DNA from: Thioalkalivibrio thiocyanodenitrificans ARhD 1
GTDB lineage: Bacteria > Pseudomonadota > Gammaproteobacteria > Ectothiorhodospirales > Ectothiorhodospiraceae
Length of the DNA: 64,000 nucleotides
Assembly (NCBI RefSeq): GCF_000378965.1
Contig: NZ_KB900536.1
Location: 2,286,052-2,350,051, forward strand
Reading direction: 5' to 3'
Shown in pieces: positions 12,385 through 23,601 of the stretch (the first letter of the stretch is position 1; each line of letters starts with the position of its first letter). The position numbers and the translations under genes were made by a program. The notes under the pieces were generated by a model. The model saw only the letters and a list, made by a program, of their open reading frames with translations. It was not told the DNA's origin and did no database searches.

Positions 12385-12448
12385 GCACCTGGCCGACCCG
12401 GCGGACATTCTGGCAGCCGATGAGGCGCCAGCACGGAGCGAACTCTGT

Positions 12449-12724
12449 ATGAGCAAGCGTCGCAAGGCCACACCTGACTTCCAGTCGGAAGCAGAGGAAA
12501 GGGCCTTCTGGGAAAGCCATGATTCCAGCGACTACGTCGATTGGAGCAAGGCGCAGCGTGTGTCTCTTCCCAACCTTAAGCCTTCAACAAAGACCATCTC
12601 ACTCCGGCTCCCGGTGGCGCTGCTGGAGCGCATCAAGATCGAAGCCAACAAACGGGATATGCCCTACCAGTCTCTGATCAAGGCCTGGCTCGCCGAGGAC
12701 GTTGCAAGGAATCACAGCGGCTGA
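12449..12724 (+). CDS. CopG-family antitoxin, orphan copy
   Basis: A 91-residue antitoxin nearly identical to the one at 15636-15911 (differences only near the ends). The N-terminal toxin-binding part contains EAEERAFWESHDSSDYVDW and the C-terminal ribbon-helix-helix contains TISLRLPVALLERIKIEA. The toxin gene that precedes the second copy is missing here: only the last bases upstream of the ATG resemble the brnT end. It could neutralise the intact toxin 3 kb away or be a leftover of a duplication. A hicB 3' fragment follows at once. Confidence 0.82.
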   Translation: MSKRRKATPDFQSEAEERAFWESHDSSDYVDWSKAQRVSLPNLKPSTKTISLRLPVALLERIKIEANKRDMPYQSLIKAWLAEDVARNHSG

Positions 12725-12732
12725 GGTCGGCG

Positions 12733-12841
12733 TCCGCCTCGTGGATCCTGACCATGCTTCCCGGCTGGATGGCGTTGTGGCGGCCCTATCGGTCCTGGGT
12801 CGCGACCTCATCATTGAGGATCAGAAGCAGGTGGCGGCTTG
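12733..12841 (+). pseudogene. hicB 3'-end fragment, copy 1
   Basis: Reads RLVDPDHASRLDGVVAALSV, then LGRDLIIEDQKQVAA and stop: the last 35 or so residues of a HicB antitoxin, including the end of its helix-turn-helix. No start or N-terminal domain is present. The same piece occurs at 15919-16032 and inside the decayed hicB at 14702-15104. Confidence 0.75.
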
Positions 12842-12999
12842 AGTGCAAGTGGGCGCGCGGCGGATCGGCGGATACTGAGCCTCATGGTCGTTAGAGCCCC
12901 ATTTTCATCCCCGGAAATGGGCCTCTAAGCGGGAATCACACCCCGCAAAACAAGGCGTTCTCCAGGGATATCAATGTGTTGCCGTGGTCCGACCCCGCG
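12842..12999. repeat. Cassette-region repeat, copy 1 (hairpin plus 3' tag)
   Basis: About 155 bp of conserved non-coding sequence after a hicB stop. It contains a 14-bp imperfect stem, TTAGAGCCCCATTT (12891-12904) against AAATGGGCCTCTAA (12915-12928), and ends with a GTTGCCGTGGTCCGACCCCG tag. Other copies are 15105-15262 and 16033-16188, with partial ones at 11741-11867 and 10433-10470. Confidence 0.8.
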
Positions 13000-14701: not shown

Positions 14702-15104
14702 ACACTACGCGTCCGGGTCAGGATCAATCCCAACTGCTCCGGATGTGCAGGGGGTGATCACCGACGGCGCGACCCGACAGGAAGTCGTGAAGGAAGCGAG
14801 GCGCCGGGTGCCGCCCTTGCAGGTTACGCGCTCAAGGGAGTTGAGCTGCCCCTCGAAGGCGAAGCGGGGCCAGTGCCTGGCGCCCGTAGCGCCGCTTGTG
14901 GCCGCCAAACCGGCCTTGCGTGCCGCCATGCGTGAAGAAGGGGTCTCCAATGTGGCCCTGGCCCGCCGTCTGGGGGTGTCCGAAGCCGCGGTCCGCCGCC
15001 TCGTGGATCCGGACCACGCCTCCCGGCCGGATGGCGTTGTAGCTGCCCTATCGGTCCTGGGTCGCGGCCTCATCATCGAGGATCAGAGGCAGGTGGCGGC
15101 TTGA
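14702..15104 (+). pseudogene. Decayed hicB antitoxin gene with two frameshifts
   Basis: HicB-like sequence is spread over two frames. PDVQGVITDGATRQEVVKEA is in the frame ending at 15104, then ALAGYALKGVELPL is in a different frame, then VAPLVAAKPALRAAMREEG and NVALARRLGVSEAAVRRLVD return to the first frame up to the stop. No good start codon is present and no hicA lies before it. The 3' end matches the isolated fragments at 12733 and 15919. Confidence 0.75.
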
Positions 15105-15262
15105 GTGCACGTGGGCACGCGGCGGATCGCCGGATACGAGCCCCTTGGGCGTTTGAGCGCCATTTTCATCCCCGGATATGGCCTTCCAAGCGGGAATTGC
15201 AGCCCGAAAACCAGGCGTTCGCCCGAGGTATCAAGGTGTTGCCGGTGATCCGACCCCGTTCT
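15105..15262. repeat. Cassette-region repeat, copy 2
   Basis: Same arrangement as copy 1, directly after the hicB stop: imperfect stem TTGAGCGCCAT against ATGGCCTTCCAA and a GTTGCCGGTGATCCGACCCC end tag. Confidence 0.78.
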
Positions 15263-15349: not shown

Positions 15350-15664
15350 ATGCTGAACTGGGCGCAGGTCAAGGGATTTGACTGGGACATCGGCAATGCT
15401 CGTAAGAGTGCCGACAAGCACGGCGTCAGTCAGGCCGAGGCCGAGCAGGTGTTTTTCAATGTACCCCTGCTCCTGGCGACTGATTCAAAGCATAGCGTGC
15501 AGGAACAACGCTACCACGCCCTGGGCAGGACGGATGATGGCCGACTGCTTCACATCACATTCACGTTGCGTGTTTCCGGAACCCTGATCCGTGTGATCTC
15601 TGCGTGGAATATGCACCGGAAGGAGCGGATTTTCTATGAGCAAGCGTCGCAAGACCGCACCTGA
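15350..15664 (+). CDS. brnT: BrnT-family toxin (DUF497)
   Basis: A 104-residue toxin of the RelE/Kid-like BrnT family: FDWDIGNARKSADKHGVSQA, EAEQVFFN, RYHALGRTDDGRLLHITFTL, and the end motif RVISAWNMHRKERIFYEQ. BrnT proteins are ribonucleases that block translation. The gene overlaps the antitoxin gene by 29 bp, as usual. No Shine-Dalgarno sequence sits at normal spacing. It is the only intact toxin among the cassettes here. Confidence 0.87.
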   Translation: MLNWAQVKGFDWDIGNARKSADKHGVSQAEAEQVFFNVPLLLATDSKHSVQEQRYHALGRTDDGRLLHITFTLRVSGTLIRVISAWNMHRKERIFYEQASQDRT

Positions 15665-15911
15665 CTTCCAGTCGGAAGCAGAGGAAAGGGCCTTCTGGGA
15701 AAGCCATGATTCCAGCGACTACGTCGATTGGAGCAAGGCGCAGCGTGTGTCTCTTCCAAACCTGAAGCCTTCAACAAAGACCATCTCACTCCGACTCCCG
15801 GTGGCGCTGCTGGAGCGCATCAAGATCGAAGCCAACAAACGGGATATGCCCTACCAGTCTCTGATCAAGGCCTGGCTCGCCGAGGACGTTGCAAGGAAAC
15901 ACGACGGCTGA
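15636..15911 (+). CDS. CopG-family antitoxin partner of BrnT
   Basis: A 91-residue antitoxin with an N-terminal toxin-binding segment (RAFWESHDSSDYVDWSKAQR) and a ribbon-helix-helix (TISLRLPVALLERIKIEA, MPYQSLIKAWLAEDVA). It overlaps brnT and probably binds the palindrome at 15326-15344 to repress the operon. It matches the CopG_antitoxin family more than classic BrnA. The copy at 12449-12724 is almost identical, so the antitoxin gene and what follows were duplicated. Confidence 0.87.
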   Translation: MSKRRKTAPDFQSEAEERAFWESHDSSDYVDWSKAQRVSLPNLKPSTKTISLRLPVALLERIKIEANKRDMPYQSLIKAWLAEDVARKHDG

Positions 15912-15918
15912 GGCGATC

Positions 15919-16032
15919 ATCCGCCGCCTCGTGGATCCGGACCATGCCTCCCGGCTCGATGGCGTTGTGGCTGCCCTATCGGTCCTGGGTCGCGGCCTCA
16001 TCATCGAGGATCAGAGGCAGGTGGCGGCTTGA
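15919..16032 (+). pseudogene. hicB 3'-end fragment, copy 2
   Basis: Reads IRRLVDPDHASRLDGVVAAL, then SVLGRGLIIEDQRQVAA and stop, matching the C-terminus of the decayed hicB at 14702-15104. It follows the CopG antitoxin by 8 bp, the same junction as at 12724-12733. Confidence 0.75.
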
Positions 16033-16188
16033 GTGCACAAGTGGGCGCACGGCGGAGCGCCGGACACAGGGCCCCGTGGGCGTTAGAGCGCCACTTTCAT
16101 CCCCAGAAATGGCCTTCTAAGCGGGAATCCCAGGCCGAAAAACGGGCCTGTAACCCGGGATATCGATGCGTTAACTTAATCCGACCCC
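16033..16188. repeat. Cassette-region repeat, copy 3
   Basis: Third full copy after a hicB stop: stem TTAGAGCGCCA against TGGCCTTCTAA, ending in an AATCCGACCCCG tag. It marks the right edge of the cassette region. Confidence 0.78.
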
Positions 16189-16937: not shown

Positions 16938-17987
16938 TTATCCACTGAGGATAGCCCGCCAATCAGGCGATAGGCTGGCCAATTCGCTGCCTTGTTTCCA
17001 GAGAAGACCGTTCTGCAAATCAGCCTGAGCATATGCCCATCTGGCAATCTGATAACTGGCATCGCGGTCATGCAATAGGCCTCGCCTGTCAAATGCCTCT
17101 GTGAGTTTACTATCTTGTTCCTCGTTCCGTTGGCGCCAGCGCTGCAAATGCTCTAAGGCCGCAAGGTGATCGGACTTGGCACGGTTACAGCTTGGGTGCG
17201 CAAGCACGAAATTGTGTCCCAAATCGATGGGATAACGGGAACGCGGGATGAAGTGGTCCACGTCGGACGCAGCGCGAAGCTGTCGTTCGCAGTAGAAGCA
17301 CCTTGGACCGTCGATTTCCAGCAACACCTTTCTGTAGTCGGCGAGGCTCTGCCGTTCGCTGCCGAACATGAACTCAACAAGATCAACGCGCTGTCCCAGA
17401 ATCGGCTGGTTTCGGTCCAGGCGCCTCACCGCGGCGATCCAGGCGCCCTGAATCATGTTGGTAATCATGGGGTGAAACGCGCGAAAATTATACGCAACGC
17501 CTGGGAGCAGCCGAATGGCATTGTTTTCCAGCGAATGCGGATAGAGGAATATGCTGGGGCTGTCGCCGATCACCTGCAGTCGCCACAGAGGCATTCGCTC
17601 GACCACGGTGGCAACATGCCGAAGCAGCCGCGCCCAAATATTTCGCTGAGTTCTTATCCTGGCCAGGCTACCACCGTTGGCATTCTGAACATTGACAATT
17701 GCGTTGATGATGGCGGCTTGTTGGCCGGCATTCTGGTGCAACACTTGAGCGGGTGACGTACGTGGAAACGGTCGCGACTGCGGCCAGTAGTACTGAATGA
17801 ACTTCTCGGCGACGACGTCGAGCGGTACCTCCAACTCGTCTCCCGAGTCGTCGCCCTGTTCCACGGCAATATCGGCCAGGGCCAGTAACAATGCATACTT
17901 ATAAGTAGCGACGAAGCTTCCTTCTGCAAGAAGGCGCTGCAGATTTTGCAGAAAGCAGATCTGGGCATGTTCAGTCGGTCTCGCCAT
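16938..17987 (-). CDS. HNH endonuclease, large, with helical N-terminal domain
   Basis: A 349-residue protein. Residues about 1-215 are mostly helical without a recognised domain. Residues about 225-275 form an HNH nuclease: CFYCERQLRAASDVDHFIPR, then NFVLAHPSCNRAKSDH, giving the CxxC, the DH pair and the N of the fold. It should cut DNA or RNA in a metal-dependent way; the substrate is unknown. It is last in a tight minus-strand run (HNH_2, small ORF, HIT, HNH) with a 3-bp gap after the HIT gene. The N-terminal region may be a target-recognition or regulatory part. A defence or mobile-element role is inferred from context only. Confidence 0.82.
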   Translation of the reverse strand: MARPTEHAQICFLQNLQRLLAEGSFVATYKYALLLALADIAVEQGDDSGDELEVPLDVVAEKFIQYYWPQSRPFPRTSPAQVLHQNAGQQAAIINAIVNVQNANGGSLARIRTQRNIWARLLRHVATVVERMPLWRLQVIGDSPSIFLYPHSLENNAIRLLPGVAYNFRAFHPMITNMIQGAWIAAVRRLDRNQPILGQRVDLVEFMFGSERQSLADYRKVLLEIDGPRCFYCERQLRAASDVDHFIPRSRYPIDLGHNFVLAHPSCNRAKSDHLAALEHLQRWRQRNEEQDSKLTEAFDRRGLLHDRDASYQIARWAYAQADLQNGLLWKQGSELASLSPDWRAILSG

Positions 17988-17990
17988 GGT

Positions 17991-18380
17991 TTAGTCGCGC
18001 CAGTACTTCGCCTTGTTCGGGAATATCCAGCGGAGCCCTCCGCGGGGATCATCACAGTCTCCCTCAAAACGCGGAATCAGGTGAATATGAAGGTGCGGAA
18101 CAGTCTGGCCCGCGGCCACCCCGTCATTAATGCCGATATTGTACGCGGTGGGTTTGAACTCCTTATCAAGCACACTCTTTGCTTCATCAAGCCCTCGCAA
18201 GAGCGCTTCGCGTTCTGAAATTGTAGCTTCGAAGATCGATTTCACATGGCGTTTTGGGATGATGAGGGTGTGGCCGGGCGAGACTGGGTAACCATCCCGT
18301 ATTACGACCACGAGATCATGGTCTGACACGATCCGCTCAGGACTCAAGGTACAGAACGGGCAATCGGAGACCACATTCAT
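17991..18380 (-). CDS. HIT-family nucleotide hydrolase/transferase
   Basis: A 129-residue HIT protein. The active site HLHIHLIPR (HxHxHxx) is intact, with the preceding LIIPKRHVKSIFEATISERE helix. An N-terminal CPFC pair could bind zinc, as in many Hint/HIT hydrolases. Such proteins cleave AMP-lysine or dinucleoside polyphosphates. It lies between two genes encoding HNH nucleases in a compact run, which is unusual for a housekeeping HIT and suggests a shared function, for example removal of a nucleotide adduct or signal. Confidence 0.9.
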   Translation of the reverse strand: MNVVSDCPFCTLSPERIVSDHDLVVVIRDGYPVSPGHTLIIPKRHVKSIFEATISEREALLRGLDEAKSVLDKEFKPTAYNIGINDGVAAGQTVPHLHIHLIPRFEGDCDDPRGGLRWIFPNKAKYWRD

Positions 18381-18390
18381 CGATCACACC

Positions 18391-18582
18391 TCACTCATAT
18401 AGTGGAAGAAGCTCCGTACGTGTCCCCTGCTCAGAGACAACCAGGACATAGATGGTACCGGATAACTCATTTCCAGAATTAATCCTATCGGCTTTCCAGT
18501 TGTCCAATAAGAAGGTCTCGGCGCGAAGAAGGTTCAGTCCCGAATCCGGGAACCCAGACGAAGAGTTTGTGCCTGGCCGCAT
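18391..18582 (-). CDS. Small hypothetical protein within the HNH-HIT cluster
   Basis: A 63-residue frame whose ATG directly follows the TAA of the HNH_2 gene and which ends 10 bp before the HIT start, so it would fit a translationally coupled operon. No family is recognised and no Shine-Dalgarno sequence is seen. It may be real, or only a filler frame. Confidence 0.35.
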   Translation of the reverse strand: MRPGTNSSSGFPDSGLNLLRAETFLLDNWKADRINSGNELSGTIYVLVVSEQGTRTELLPLYE

Positions 18583-19368
18583 TTACAGCGAATCAAGGAA
18601 CACATGGCTTCGATGGTATGCGAGAAAGTGCTCATCAGGAGGGAACTTTTCGGGCAACGCGATCTGTTGGCCTTCATAACGTAGAAGGGCATCTGCGTAG
18701 AAGCGATCACTGGCACCTGCCCCCTCGCGCGAGACCCTGACACTCAAATTCTCATCTACGGTTATGAATCCAAGGTCGAACGCGCGGTCATGGAGCGCGG
18801 AAAGCGCCAGTCCATTTCTCGGATTTAGCCGGTTCGACTGGTCATCTCGCCAAGGGACGATATGGCTTGCAATCAGTAAGGCCGGTACAGCAAGCCCCGT
18901 AATGCAGCACCGGTAGTTGTACGCACTCAATACCGCCCTTCGAAAGAAGCGCTGACCGAGTCTGGCCGTGGTTTGGACTGGAATGTCACGTCCACCGTAT
19001 TCGCGTTCTTCCGGTGCAAGATCATCTGCGGAAGCGATTGGCGCGGCATTGTTGGCAATGGACTCGATGGCCTCCTCTGACTCGGCCGCAAACCGACGCC
19101 AGTCGTTCTGCATCTCCACCCACATGCGGCGATCCGCCGCGGATGCCCCTGTGAGGCCTTTGCGCCCTGTCGTTGTGACTGCCGGATCAAGGCTTGCGAT
19201 GTTGGTGAGTTTCATCGCCAACGCAGACGGCGTCCTTCCAAGCAACGCGGCGAAGTGCTTGACCTTTGGGTTCGCCGCGTGGAGCTTGCCGAACGGCATC
19301 TGACAGTAGAGCCCGAACGCGACGAGGAGCTCATGACGAGTCCAAAGTCTTCGGTCGGAGGTCGTCAT
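18583..19368 (-). CDS. HNH endonuclease (HNH_2 type)
   Basis: A 261-residue protein. The N-terminal part ([20 protein letters not shown], then [20 protein letters not shown]) is the helical module often fused to HNH_2 nucleases. The nuclease core is [20 protein letters not shown], then [20 protein letters not shown] and [14 protein letters not shown], with the Cys, SHI and N/H residues of the fold. These proteins resemble restriction-type nucleases. I take the ATG at 19368; a GTG at 19389 would begin inside the duplicated glmS end. The first gene of the minus-strand cluster, it abuts the glmS scar. Confidence 0.83.
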
Positions 19369-19387
19369 GGGTGCACCAATCTTCGCC

Positions 19388-19604
19388 ACTCCACCGTCAC
19401 CGACTTCGCCAGGTTCCTCGGCTGGTCCACGTCCGTCCCCTTGAGCACGGCGGCGTGGTAGGCCAGCAACTGCAGCGGGACCGTATAGACGATCGGGGCG
19501 GTGCTGGGGCAGATGTCGGCCAGGGTGAGGCTGTGGTAGTGGTCCGGGTCGATGCGGATGCGCTGGTCGCTGAACAGGAACAGTTCGCCGCCGCTGGCGC
19601 GGAC
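19388..19604 (-). pseudogene. Duplicated 3' end of glmS (217 bp, about 95% identical)
   Basis: This stretch aligns without gaps to 21777-21993, the end of the real glmS, with roughly a dozen differences. It encodes [20 protein letters not shown] and [20 protein letters not shown], but the final TAG has become TGG and the frame reads on. It is probably the scar of an element that integrated at the glmS 3' end and carried or made a second copy. The two copies bracket a 2.2-kb segment with RelE/antitoxin and the HTH/Fic pair. Confidence 0.9.
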
Positions 19605-19632: not shown

Positions 19633-19883
19633 CTACACATCTCGCCGGTGTCCAACTTTCACGACCGTCACGACCAGTTCATCATCCACGATCTCGTAGA
19701 CGATGCGGTACACGCCCTGGCGCACTCGGTAGCGTTCCTGACCCGACAGCTTCTGGCTGTCGGGCGGTCGCGGGTCGTCGGCGAGTGCCTCGACGCGTTT
19801 GAGTATCCGGGCGACATCTCTGTTGGGAATCGGCCGCAGGTCTTTGGCATCGGATTTCCGAAGGCAAGTCTACAACTGGCCAT
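19633..19883 (-). pseudogene. RelE/ParE-family toxin gene with an N-terminal frameshift
   Basis: The frame ending at 19633 encodes almost a whole RelE toxin: RKSDAKDLRPIPNRDVARIL, KRVEALADDPRPPDSQKLSG, ERYRVRQGVYRIVYEI. It has no start codon. The only suitable ATG (19883, reading MASCRLAF) is in another frame and would join perfectly if one C were restored near 19861 (F-R-K-S). It overlaps the antitoxin stop, as is typical for such pairs. Either the toxin is inactivated by a 1-bp deletion or there is a sequencing error. Confidence 0.8.
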
Positions 19884-20103
19884 GGGCCTTCAGTTGGTTG
19901 AGCAACTCTTCGTAGGTCAATACCGGGTCCACCGCGCGCTCCTCAAAGGCTGCCAGATCCTCTTGATCCTCGGCCAGCGCCGCCCGCACCGCGTCGTTGA
20001 CGAGGTCGGAAACCGAGCGGTGGGTGTGAGCGGCCTTCAGGCGCAGGGCCTCGTGGAGCCCTTGGTCGAAATGGATTGTGGTGCGTCTGGTCGTGGCTGC
20101 CAT
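19870..20103 (-). CDS. Ribbon-helix-helix antitoxin of the RelE pair
   Basis: A 77-residue antitoxin: the DNA-binding strand TTRRTTIHFDQGLHEALRLK, then VSDLVNDAVRAALAEDQEDL and an acidic toxin-binding tail (FEERAVDPVLTYEELLNQ). Start ATG 20103 with AGAGGA upstream; a longer frame from 20331 lacks support. It precedes the frameshifted relE with a short overlap and may outlive the toxin as a remnant. Confidence 0.82.
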   Translation of the reverse strand: MAATTRRTTIHFDQGLHEALRLKAAHTHRSVSDLVNDAVRAALAEDQEDLAAFEERAVDPVLTYEELLNQLKAHGQL

Positions 20104-20654
20104 GGCCTGGTTCCTCTTGCGCAGGGCAGAACGGGCCGGCTCGGTTTGGTCCTCGGCTGCAATCACTGACTCCTTCGCTTTCATCTGAAACCGGGGTAGA
20201 ACCCCCACCTCTTCCGAGAAGCCGTCGCAGAATAGCCTAATCCCGGCTCGACAGAATAACCTAACCACGGCGCAGGCGCGGTTTGTTGCCCGGATGCAGG
20301 AGACCCGATGCGGGCCGAAGGCGGAGGTCAATCGGGCCGGGCGGTTCGCGGCGGAGTCGCCGCTCCTACGCTCGTCACGGCACGCAGATGGGCGGCCGAA
20401 GTGGAAGTGTGGTTCGGTCTGTGGGCTAAAGAATCAACATCGACAGACATGTTCGATCGATTGCGCTGGTTCGGGTGCTGGGAAAGAGATGACGGGCGGG
20501 GCGGCGGTACGAAGCAGCCTCTTACCCGACCATTTTTCAGGAGCTATCTGTCCCGTTAAGCCAGCTTATACGGTAGCGATAGGTTGCGTTGAGATTGATT
20601 GATCGGGAGTTATATGTCACGATATATTTACATTCTCGTGAGCGACGACTCCCA
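20104..20654. other. 551-bp gap between divergent modules, mostly without features
   Basis: I see no supported gene. Possible frames on both strands lack family patterns. The right end holds the promoter and operator described at 20599-20641. Near 20335-20380 a GC-rich inverted sequence (GGCGGTTCGCGG / GCGGAGTCGCCGC) may form a hairpin. Confidence 0.5.
20599..20641 (+). promoter_or_regulatory. Promoter and palindromic operator of the mobile mystery A/B operon
   Basis: TTGATC (20599-20604) and TATATT (20623-20628) are 18 bp apart. The inverted repeat TCACGA (20617-20622)/TCGTGA (20636-20641) overlaps the -10 element and lies 14 bp before the ATG, a suitable autoregulatory site for the HTH protein encoded next. 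Confidence 0.5.
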
Positions 20655-21113
20655 ATGACTGCGAACCTTCGAACCCTGCGCCGGCGCCAACTCGATGCCG
20701 CCCTGGCTCGCTGGCGTGAAGCCGCGCTGCCCACCCGCCCGTCCAGTGGCTGGGTGCGGGCCATACGAGATGCCTTGGGGATGAGCTCGGCCGCGCTGGC
20801 CCGTCGCCTCGGCATCACGGACTCGGCCGTGCGCAAGCTCGAGGACGCCGAGTCGAACGACGCCATCACCCTGGCCACCCTGCGACGGCTTGCCGCCAGC
20901 CTGGATTGCGAGTTGCAATATGCTTTGGTGCCGAAACAATCCCTCGACACCATGCGGACCCAACGCGCCATGCAGATCGCGCGCGAACAGGTTCAGTCCG
21001 TCGCGCGCAGCATGGCCCTGGAGGATCAGGCTGTCGATCCAGACTTGACCGAGGCGCAAATCAAGGAGATCGCCCAGACCCTTCTGTCGAAATCAGGCAA
21101 GGGGCTCTGGTGA
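20655..21113 (+). CDS. Mobile mystery protein A (HTH regulator)
   Basis: A 152-residue protein with an XRE-type helix-turn-helix (IRDALGMSSAALARRLGITD, SAVRKLEDAESNDAITLATL) and a helical C-terminus. Length, motif and the Fic gene directly after it match the mobile mystery protein A family, which is always paired with protein B. It probably represses the operon and counteracts the Fic protein. Its stop overlaps the next start (TGATG). Confidence 0.88.
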   Translation: MTANLRTLRRRQLDAALARWREAALPTRPSSGWVRAIRDALGMSSAALARRLGITDSAVRKLEDAESNDAITLATLRRLAASLDCELQYALVPKQSLDTMRTQRAMQIAREQVQSVARSMALEDQAVDPDLTEAQIKEIAQTLLSKSGKGLW

Positions 21114-21697
21114 TGGAGTTTCACTATGCACCGGGCGCCACGCCGCTGGATCCGGACGAGGCGGCCGACTTGATCCCGAACCACATCACCACCCAGAGTG
21201 AACTCAACGAGTGGGAGCAAACCAACATCCTGGAAGGTGTGCAATGGGCGCGTCGGCAGAAGAAGCGAGAGATTCTGAGCGAAGAGTTCTTGCGCGAGCT
21301 GCATCGGCGCATGTTTGGTCAGACATGGCGATGGGCGGGGGTTTTTCGTCAGAGCGACAAGAACATCGGCGTGGACTGGCGGCAGATCTCCACTGACCTG
21401 CGCAACCTGCTCGACGACGTGAAAGCGCAGATTGAGCATGCCTCGTACCCGCCCGATGAAATCGCGTTGCGCTTTCATCACCGGCTGGTCTGGATTCATC
21501 CTTTTGTCAACGGCAATGGCCGTCATGCTCGCCTGGCCGCAGATCTTCTGATCCAAAGGCTCGGATGCCCTGCCTTCACTTGGGGCGGCCAGTCCCTGGT
21601 CGAGGCCAACGAAAAGCGAAATCTCTACCTCGCGGCTCTGCGAGCGGCCGATGGCCGAGATTACCGGGCCTTGATGGCATTTGCGCGGAGTCAGTGA
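21113..21697 (+). CDS. Mobile mystery protein B (Fic/Doc domain)
   Basis: A 194-residue Fic protein. The catalytic motif HPFVNGNGRHAR fits HPFx(D/E/N)GNGRxxR, though with Asn where many active AMPylases have Asp or Glu. The N-terminal part (NHITTQSELNEWEQTNILEG) and the mid region QTWRWAGVFRQSDKNIGVDW are typical of mobile mystery protein B. It probably modifies a target protein or tRNA-linked factor with a nucleotide as a toxin-like activity, with protein A as its regulator. The target is unknown. Confidence 0.9.
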   Translation: MEFHYAPGATPLDPDEAADLIPNHITTQSELNEWEQTNILEGVQWARRQKKREILSEEFLRELHRRMFGQTWRWAGVFRQSDKNIGVDWRQISTDLRNLLDDVKAQIEHASYPPDEIALRFHHRLVWIHPFVNGNGRHARLAADLLIQRLGCPAFTWGGQSLVEANEKRNLYLAALRAADGRDYRALMAFARSQ

Positions 21698-21774
21698 ACG
21701 GCTGATCGGGCCTGATATTGAGCGCGACGGCGGGCGCCTGTTCGCGCAACATTGGGAATGACCTGATAACAGCG

Positions 21775-23601
<1,827 letters not shown>

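Follow-up and report, generated by a model that had tools for sequence, protein, structure and literature searches.

Within the genome of Thioalkalivibrio thiocyanodenitrificans ARhD 1, a stretch of 64,000 nucleotides (contig NZ_KB900536.1, positions 2,286,052 to 2,350,051; hereafter the window) carries on its minus strand a gene for a small HIT-family hydrolase followed directly by a gene for an HNH protein, here named HNH3. These two genes are the real unit of the locus, a pair kept together across many unrelated bacteria and standing in a defence setting. It is probably a virus-defence unit for which no published description was found: the literature searched, supplementary tables apart, named no HIT-HNH pair or fusion, and a prior mention is possible. 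A first-pass annotation had grouped four open reading frames (ORFs), encoding an HNH_2 enzyme, a small protein, HIT and a second HNH protein, as a possible uncharacterised defence or mobile module. The order, domains and spacing of that layout were confirmed, as the minus strand reads HNH1, the 63-amino-acid (aa) ORF, HIT and HNH3 in the direction of transcription with intergenic gaps of 0, 10 and 3 bp, but the small ORF did not survive as a gene. The features concerned are the following.

16938..17987, minus strand: HNH3, a 349-aa HNH protein (PF13395 25.6 bits and PF01844 25.6 bits, both above the gathering cut-off; the PF01844 cut-off of 21.4 places it in the HNH superfamily)
17376-17987, minus strand, approximately residues 1-204: predicted N-terminal winged-helix (SBD-like) domain of HNH3, followed by the C-terminal HNH part
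17160..17300, minus strand, residues 230-276: HNH nuclease motif of HNH3 (Pfam match)
17991..18380, minus strand: HIT, a 129-aa HIT hydrolase 3 bp upstream of HNH3 (PF01230 90.6 bits against a cut-off of 21.5, placing it in the HIT superfamily)
18391..18582, minus strand: 63-aa ORF, judged a non-coding spacer
18583..19368, minus strand: HNH1, an HNH_2 endonuclease and optional neighbour (PF13391 46.4 bits; PADLOC 'HNH' PDLC04132 393.9 bits)

One line of evidence for the pair is its recurrence. Nine aligned HNH3 proteins, used as the query against genome contigs, returned at least 349 relatives, of which the best-scoring 80 were kept, and the sample therefore favours close kin. At 58 of these 80 loci a HIT gene is adjacent to HNH3, upstream and co-directional, while at another 11 (ten by score, and L065 by Pfam) the adjacent gene encodes a class I S-adenosylmethionine (SAM) methyltransferase; HIT lies 1-2 kb off at two of the remaining loci, the contig ends at two, and seven have another partner or none that was recognised. 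By record titles, the HIT-bearing loci span nine phyla (Pseudomonadota, Acidobacteriota, Planctomycetota, Gemmatimonadota, Verrucomicrobiota, Omnitrophota, Thermodesulfobacteriota, Eiseniibacteriota and Krumholzibacteriota), and since many are metagenome bins, single phylum placements may be wrong. Viral contigs contributed three more full-length HNH3 proteins among eight loci; L102, whose frame ran off the contig, was left out of alignment A3 and of the classified set, which comprised 82 loci (80 genome and two viral).

The distances among HIT and among HNH3 proteins are correlated over 59 pairs (r 0.375), the highest of 2000 permutations reaching 0.185. Partner labels cluster on the HNH3 tree, where the methyltransferase, which substitutes for HIT in some lineages, requires at least three changes of label on well-supported branches (with L065 labelled 'none'). 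The short upstream gene often overlaps the HNH3 gene by about 4 bp. In Hymenobacter and Persicobacter (Bacteroidota) the order is inverted to HNH-HIT, and the HNH protein is a distant homologue of HNH3 (44.2 and 39.6 bits). These two are among nine top plasmid HITs examined, of which four adjoin an HNH protein; the other two of the four, from Polaromonas and Aromatoleum, adjoin HNH3. An origin in isolated phages was rejected, since none of 50,697 phage records matched HNH3 at E 1e-5. A distinct version is found in Acinetobacter (L016, L075, L076, L079, L082-L085 and L100), where the SAM methyltransferase gene overlaps HNH3 by 8 bp; among these methyltransferase-HNH3 loci, L016 is plasmid-borne and L100 comes from a viral contig.

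The surroundings of the pair were compared at 15 loci with one arbitrary stretch from each of the same 15 genomes, using ORFs of at least 100 aa and PADLOC at E <= 1e-20, the pair itself being excluded and HNH_2 neighbours included. The 117 ORFs near the pair matched 123 PADLOC families and the 119 control ORFs matched 3, where a count of families is not a count of genes, as several families can match one gene. The neighbourhoods of these loci are thus defence islands. Dropped from the control were L260 (on the same contig as case L081), L256 (only 3.3 kb, for case L068) and three non-existent stretches; for two of the 15 pairs kept (L071 and L060), the control lies on the contig of the case, within about 7 and 21 kb. 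Among the 25 near-set families listed are Druantia DruE, Dsr1, type IIG and type IV restriction enzymes and DpdF, as well as Hhe, Gabija GajB, Avs3a and candidate systems. Genes of one family, marked by a NOV_C domain (Pfam matches on L071 and L087), recur near the pair at L068, L071, L080 and L087, and at about 5 kb in L094; its L068 member corresponds to the PADLOC candidate PDC-S36 (325 bits) and overlaps HIT by 4 bp. The label of an uncharacterised defence module therefore holds for HIT and HNH3, given 58 adjacent pairs and the islands of the 15-locus sample, but not for the four-gene composition.

Two members of the proposed cluster fall away on comparison with Thioalkalivibrio denitrificans. 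There the ATG of the 63-aa ORF is ATT and its stop is lost; the 192-nt region is 70% identical, with 16, 17 and 25 differences at the three codon positions, as opposed to a third-position excess in HIT (10/7/40), HNH_2 (48/31/99) and HNH3 (33/15/90). The ORF had no Pfam, PADLOC or NCBIfam match and, judged by this sequence comparison, is non-coding rather than a gene, so that between HNH_2 and HIT there are 202 bp that show no coding constraint. HNH1 is conserved in T. denitrificans; within 359 kb of flanking sequence, an HNH_2-type gene lies within 2.5 kb at 13 of the 82 loci, two of them near-copies (L025 and L027). With 26 HNH_2 genes in total among 114 genomes of the class, and genomes taken as 3 Mb each, chance would place about 0.03 in these flanks, an estimate that is rough since the two sets differ in taxa. 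HNH1 is thus a facultative neighbour, and a four-gene system can be ruled out.

Both proteins of the pair retain their catalytic residues. In HIT, H37, H96, H98 and H100 are invariant in all 59 rows of the alignment, and the family has its own C-terminal signature, D-x-x-DPRGGxR; by profile, the closest solved relatives are HITs of the Hint, Fhit and Ap4A type. In HNH3, D244, H245, N259, N268 and K271 are invariant in all 84 rows, and C230, C233 and C267 occur in 84, 83 and 83 of them. The AlphaFold models of HNH3 are confident (predicted local distance difference test 93.9 for the whole protein, 93.6 for the N-domain alone), and from them the N-domain is predicted to be a winged-helix domain of SBD-like shape. 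Against solved structures, the N-domain model matched the Cdc6 winged helix (1fnn; Z 7.5, root-mean-square deviation (rmsd) 3.2, 113 residues aligned) and the Hga SBD with phosphorothioated DNA (8h0l; Z 7.2, rmsd 3.1, 116/146), the next match having Z 5.3, and the whole model matched the SprMcrA SBD (7ccd; Z 7.3, rmsd 3.5, 132/164). The N-domain had no Pfam, NCBIfam, PHROGs or PADLOC match, only the HNH part of the protein being hit (for PADLOC, among the best 25 of 53 matches), and Foldseek with the N-domain alone returned nothing below E 1. Whole-protein fold searches found mostly Cas9 HNH domains, and most of the viral matches with a name (BFVD) were HNH proteins. A search with the N-domain through 185 genomes of the class recovered the window copy, that of genome G138 and two marginal places.

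The nearest known enzymes are the SBD-HNH phosphorothioate-dependent nucleases (EcoWI, SprMcrA; NF045808), whose sulfur-contact residues, according to one report, are HK or HR and YP (PMC7461809). They share with HNH3 a predicted winged-helix-type N-domain joined to HNH; in alignment, the SBD motif MPFWRL falls on P133 of HNH3, and K30 pairs by eye with the HKP motif. At the YP site, M132 (70 of 84 rows) precedes the invariant P133, so that the K and P of these motifs are kept and the H and Y are not. HNH3 differs in its HNH subtype (HNH_4/HNH as against their HNH_2), in the wider spacing of the two motifs, in having YK for HK, in lacking an NF045808 match and in its frequent HIT or methyltransferase partner. 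HNH1 matches NF045808 over the HNH half only, at 70 bits against a cut-off of 180. Enzymes of the winged helix-turn-helix plus SAD(SRA) plus HNH type and EVE-HNH enzymes likewise couple a reader domain to HNH in a defence setting (PMC10853773 for the SRA type), but Pfam matched no SRA or EVE domain in HNH3, which also has a HIT partner. The best PADLOC match of HNH3 (33.5 bits) is to Septu PtuB and retron HNH effectors, although it is confined to residues 215-280 of the HNH domain. NF041761 scored 11.5 bits against a cut-off of 150, and with scores below the cut-offs and an upstream partner that is HIT or methyltransferase, not PtuA, in 69 of the 80 genome loci, membership of Septu or the retrons is ruled out.

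The HIT subfamily has a wider range of companions. A HIT alignment searched against the same 185 genomes (E <= 1e-25), with flanks of about 1.5 kb screened by three HNH profiles, found 24 places in 22 genomes, and five had HNH: the window and G138 (both HNH3), G055, and two in G096, one with HNH_2 and one a fusion. In G055, the gene directly downstream of HIT encodes a canonical restriction endonuclease for phosphorothioated DNA (NF045808 320 bits, cut-off 180), a genuine SBD-HNH enzyme; in G096 HIT lies 3 bp upstream of an HNH_2 enzyme that has, by eye, an N-terminal RPHKG motif. Single-chain HNH-HIT fusions of about 330 aa, with HIT at the C-terminus, are encoded at nine of 80 viral-contig loci (the best 80 of a longer list) and once in G096 (L178, L182, L185, L186, L188, L191, L195, L199, L208 and L163, with L185 and L186 being near-copies). 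Pfam was run on three of the ten, two viral and that of G096, and gave 46.6-56.5 bits for HNH and 61.7-77.6 bits for HIT. Their HNH is of a different subtype from that of HNH3, their N-terminal part is winged-helix-like by eye only, and no isolated-phage or plasmid record matched 80% of a fusion. At three viral loci (L216:3995-5085, L227 and L243) HIT overlaps or abuts a PP-loop gene resembling PAPS reductase and DndC; the L216 gene, the one run in Pfam, scored 81.5 bits for PAPS reductase and a weaker 39.4 bits for DndC. Streptomyces phage phiSASD1 is annotated with HIT and PAPS-reductase-like neighbours as in these loci.

It is about an even call whether HIT and HNH3 form a two-component, Type IV-like modification-dependent restriction module of defence islands, with HIT as an accessory. 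The restriction half of this proposal draws on the domain architecture, the setting in defence islands and the genuine SBD-HNH enzyme beside HIT in G055; the role of HIT, the trigger and the HIT substrate we infer. The winged-helix N-domain of HNH3 would recognise a feature of foreign DNA, be it a base or backbone modification (e.g. phosphorothioate) or else an intermediate of replication or repair, after which its HNH domain would cut or nick that DNA. HIT, with its DPRGGxR tail, might hydrolyse a nucleotide product linked to this event, such as a modified mononucleotide, a 5'-phosphorothioate or phosphoramidate, or a 5'-adenylylated end, and thereby bar the cut DNA or its nucleotides from repair or reuse. 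Counted in favour are the adjacency at 58 of 80 loci, the compact co-directional pair, the kept catalytic residues, the correlated distances, the inverted order, the fusions, the G055 partner, the island context, the structural matches to SBDs and the recurrent HNH_2 restriction-type neighbours.

A number of observations weigh on the other side. Z scores of 7-8 may reflect a common arrangement, the Cdc6 winged helix itself scoring 7.5, and in hhalign the N-domain showed no significant relation to the SBD-HNH enzymes (probability 6%), only MPLWRLQ and MPFWRLK being aligned. HNH3 had no NF045808 match at E <= 1, and the sulfur-contact HK corresponds, in a pairing made by eye, to Y29-K30 in all 84 rows. 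No annotated HNH stands beside five of the nine top plasmid HITs (one record being unannotated and read by eye); none of the three profiled HNH kinds lies within about 1.5 kb of 19 of the 24 HIT places (the flank of L143 ends at a contig end), the low-scoring ones of which resemble, by eye, housekeeping HITs; and at most of the 80 viral HIT loci neither an HNH nor a PAPS-reductase-like gene stands beside HIT. Close kin are over-represented among the 80 best-scoring HNH3 loci. Finally, in a survey of 49 genomes from among those of the 80 loci, DndC scored over its cut-off in two (four at E <= 0.001), which fits strict phosphorothioate restriction poorly.

A sulfur variant of the restriction proposal is a long shot. 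HNH3 would read a phosphorothioate or another backbone modification and cut, and HIT would desulfurate the released nucleoside 5'-phosphorothioates, as clean-up or as a second strike via H2S, with phages carrying their own HIT beside a PAPS-reductase/DndC-like enzyme. If this link is true, it would be, to our knowledge, the first case of an immune system with a dedicated way of handling phosphorothioate nucleotides. It is chemically possible, since HINT1 converts nucleoside 5'-phosphorothioates to nucleoside monophosphates and H2S (PMC8775712). DndC exceeded its cut-off in one of 47 family genomes (four at E <= 0.001); it is absent from genome G000 and its close relative G002 and present in one congeneric genome. 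With DndC so rare in both sets, a test of phosphorothioate avoidance gave no contrast and had no power.

Among the rival explanations, a signal-gated form of abortive infection is unlikely. HIT would make, alter or remove a signal nucleotide, resembling Ap4A or ADP-ribose, by which the HNH nuclease is turned on or off. HIT genes occur in 2.4% of Thoeris systems, where PADLOC's authors proposed the HIT protein ThsC as a second-messenger off-switch (PMC8565338), and the window HIT, likewise in a defence locus, scores 53.4 bits with PADLOC's ThsC2 model; some pairs have MazG- or NUDIX-like ORFs nearby (by eye, with one annotated pyrophosphohydrolase). The locus differs from Thoeris type II in that the HIT partner in the window is a nuclease, and no Ths match other than HIT was found among five window proteins scanned with PADLOC. 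Against the signal reading, no signal synthase recurs, the recurrent partners being HIT or methyltransferase, and the N-domain model of HNH3 resembles DNA-binding winged helices.

Less likely still is a toxin-antitoxin-like arrangement, in which HNH3 is a toxic nuclease silenced by HIT, or elsewhere by the methyltransferase, through binding or covalent modification. A short gene upstream of a larger nuclease gene, with the common overlap of about 4 bp, and the exchange of one enzymatic partner for another would suit it. The histidine triad kept in 59 of 59 rows would, however, be needless for a purely binding antitoxin, and the order is inverted in two Bacteroidota while elsewhere HIT is fused to another HNH subtype.

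Little credence is given to HIT as a repair-blocking helper, whereby HNH3 nicks invader DNA and an aprataxin-like HIT acts on 5'-adenylylated ligation intermediates, preventing resealing. Removal of 5'-AMP belongs to the chemistry of the HIT superfamily, and an HNH-HIT fusion would bring the activity to the nick, but the closest solved relatives are of the Hint, Fhit and Ap4A type and a HIT of only 129 aa leaves no room for a separate DNA-binding domain. Chance adjacency of defence-island cargo, which partly fits HNH1 (13 of 82 loci) and a tiny ORF that is no gene, is very improbable for HIT and HNH3 given their adjacency at 58 of 80 loci over nine phyla, the inverted order and the fusions elsewhere.

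HIT proteins are common nucleotide hydrolases whose bacterial roles are mostly open. A HIT-HNH unit in defence islands, along with the related fusions, ties them to DNA restriction in a small two-gene system, and the companions of this subfamily include an authentic SBD-HNH enzyme, an HNH_2 enzyme and, at some phage loci, a DndC-like PP-loop enzyme.

The cluster lies in a segment of low GC content (0.535-0.558 over 16-19 kb, 0.598-0.714 per kb elsewhere in the window) next to an integration scar, both as the first-pass annotation had stated. Two further features define this site.

19384..19604: copy of the glmS 3' end, the integration scar, a 221-nt direct repeat 95% identical to 21773-21993
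21775..23601, minus strand: glmS, chromosomal anchor of the hotspot, a 608-aa ORF sharing 97% identity with the glmS next to the cluster in T. denitrificans

The 3' copy stops 15 bp short of the ATG of HNH1. In T. denitrificans (L020, the closest relative), HNH1, HIT and HNH3 follow glmS in identical order, separated from it by ORFs of HipA-like and ribbon-helix-helix type (named by eye), and the presence of glmS and cluster together in both therefore marks a glmS-linked site in two species of one genus. This position is all that speaks for a mobile module, as no integrase was found among ten window ORFs scanned with Pfam.

A weakly ribbon-helix-helix-like ORF at 19870-20331 is kept near the cluster in T. 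denitrificans at 85% DNA identity. Between the two glmS 3' copies, at 20589-21697, an HTH_3 ORF is followed by an overlapping ORF with a Fic domain, possibly a Fic toxin with an HTH antitoxin. The stretch next to the cluster is rich in repeats, with several direct repeats that include two families (12435-12734 and 15622-15921; 12734-12875, 14996-15137 and 15924-16065) of 82-94% identity over the two, and a CopG-antitoxin ORF (15636-15911) lies inside the repeat copy at 15622-15921.

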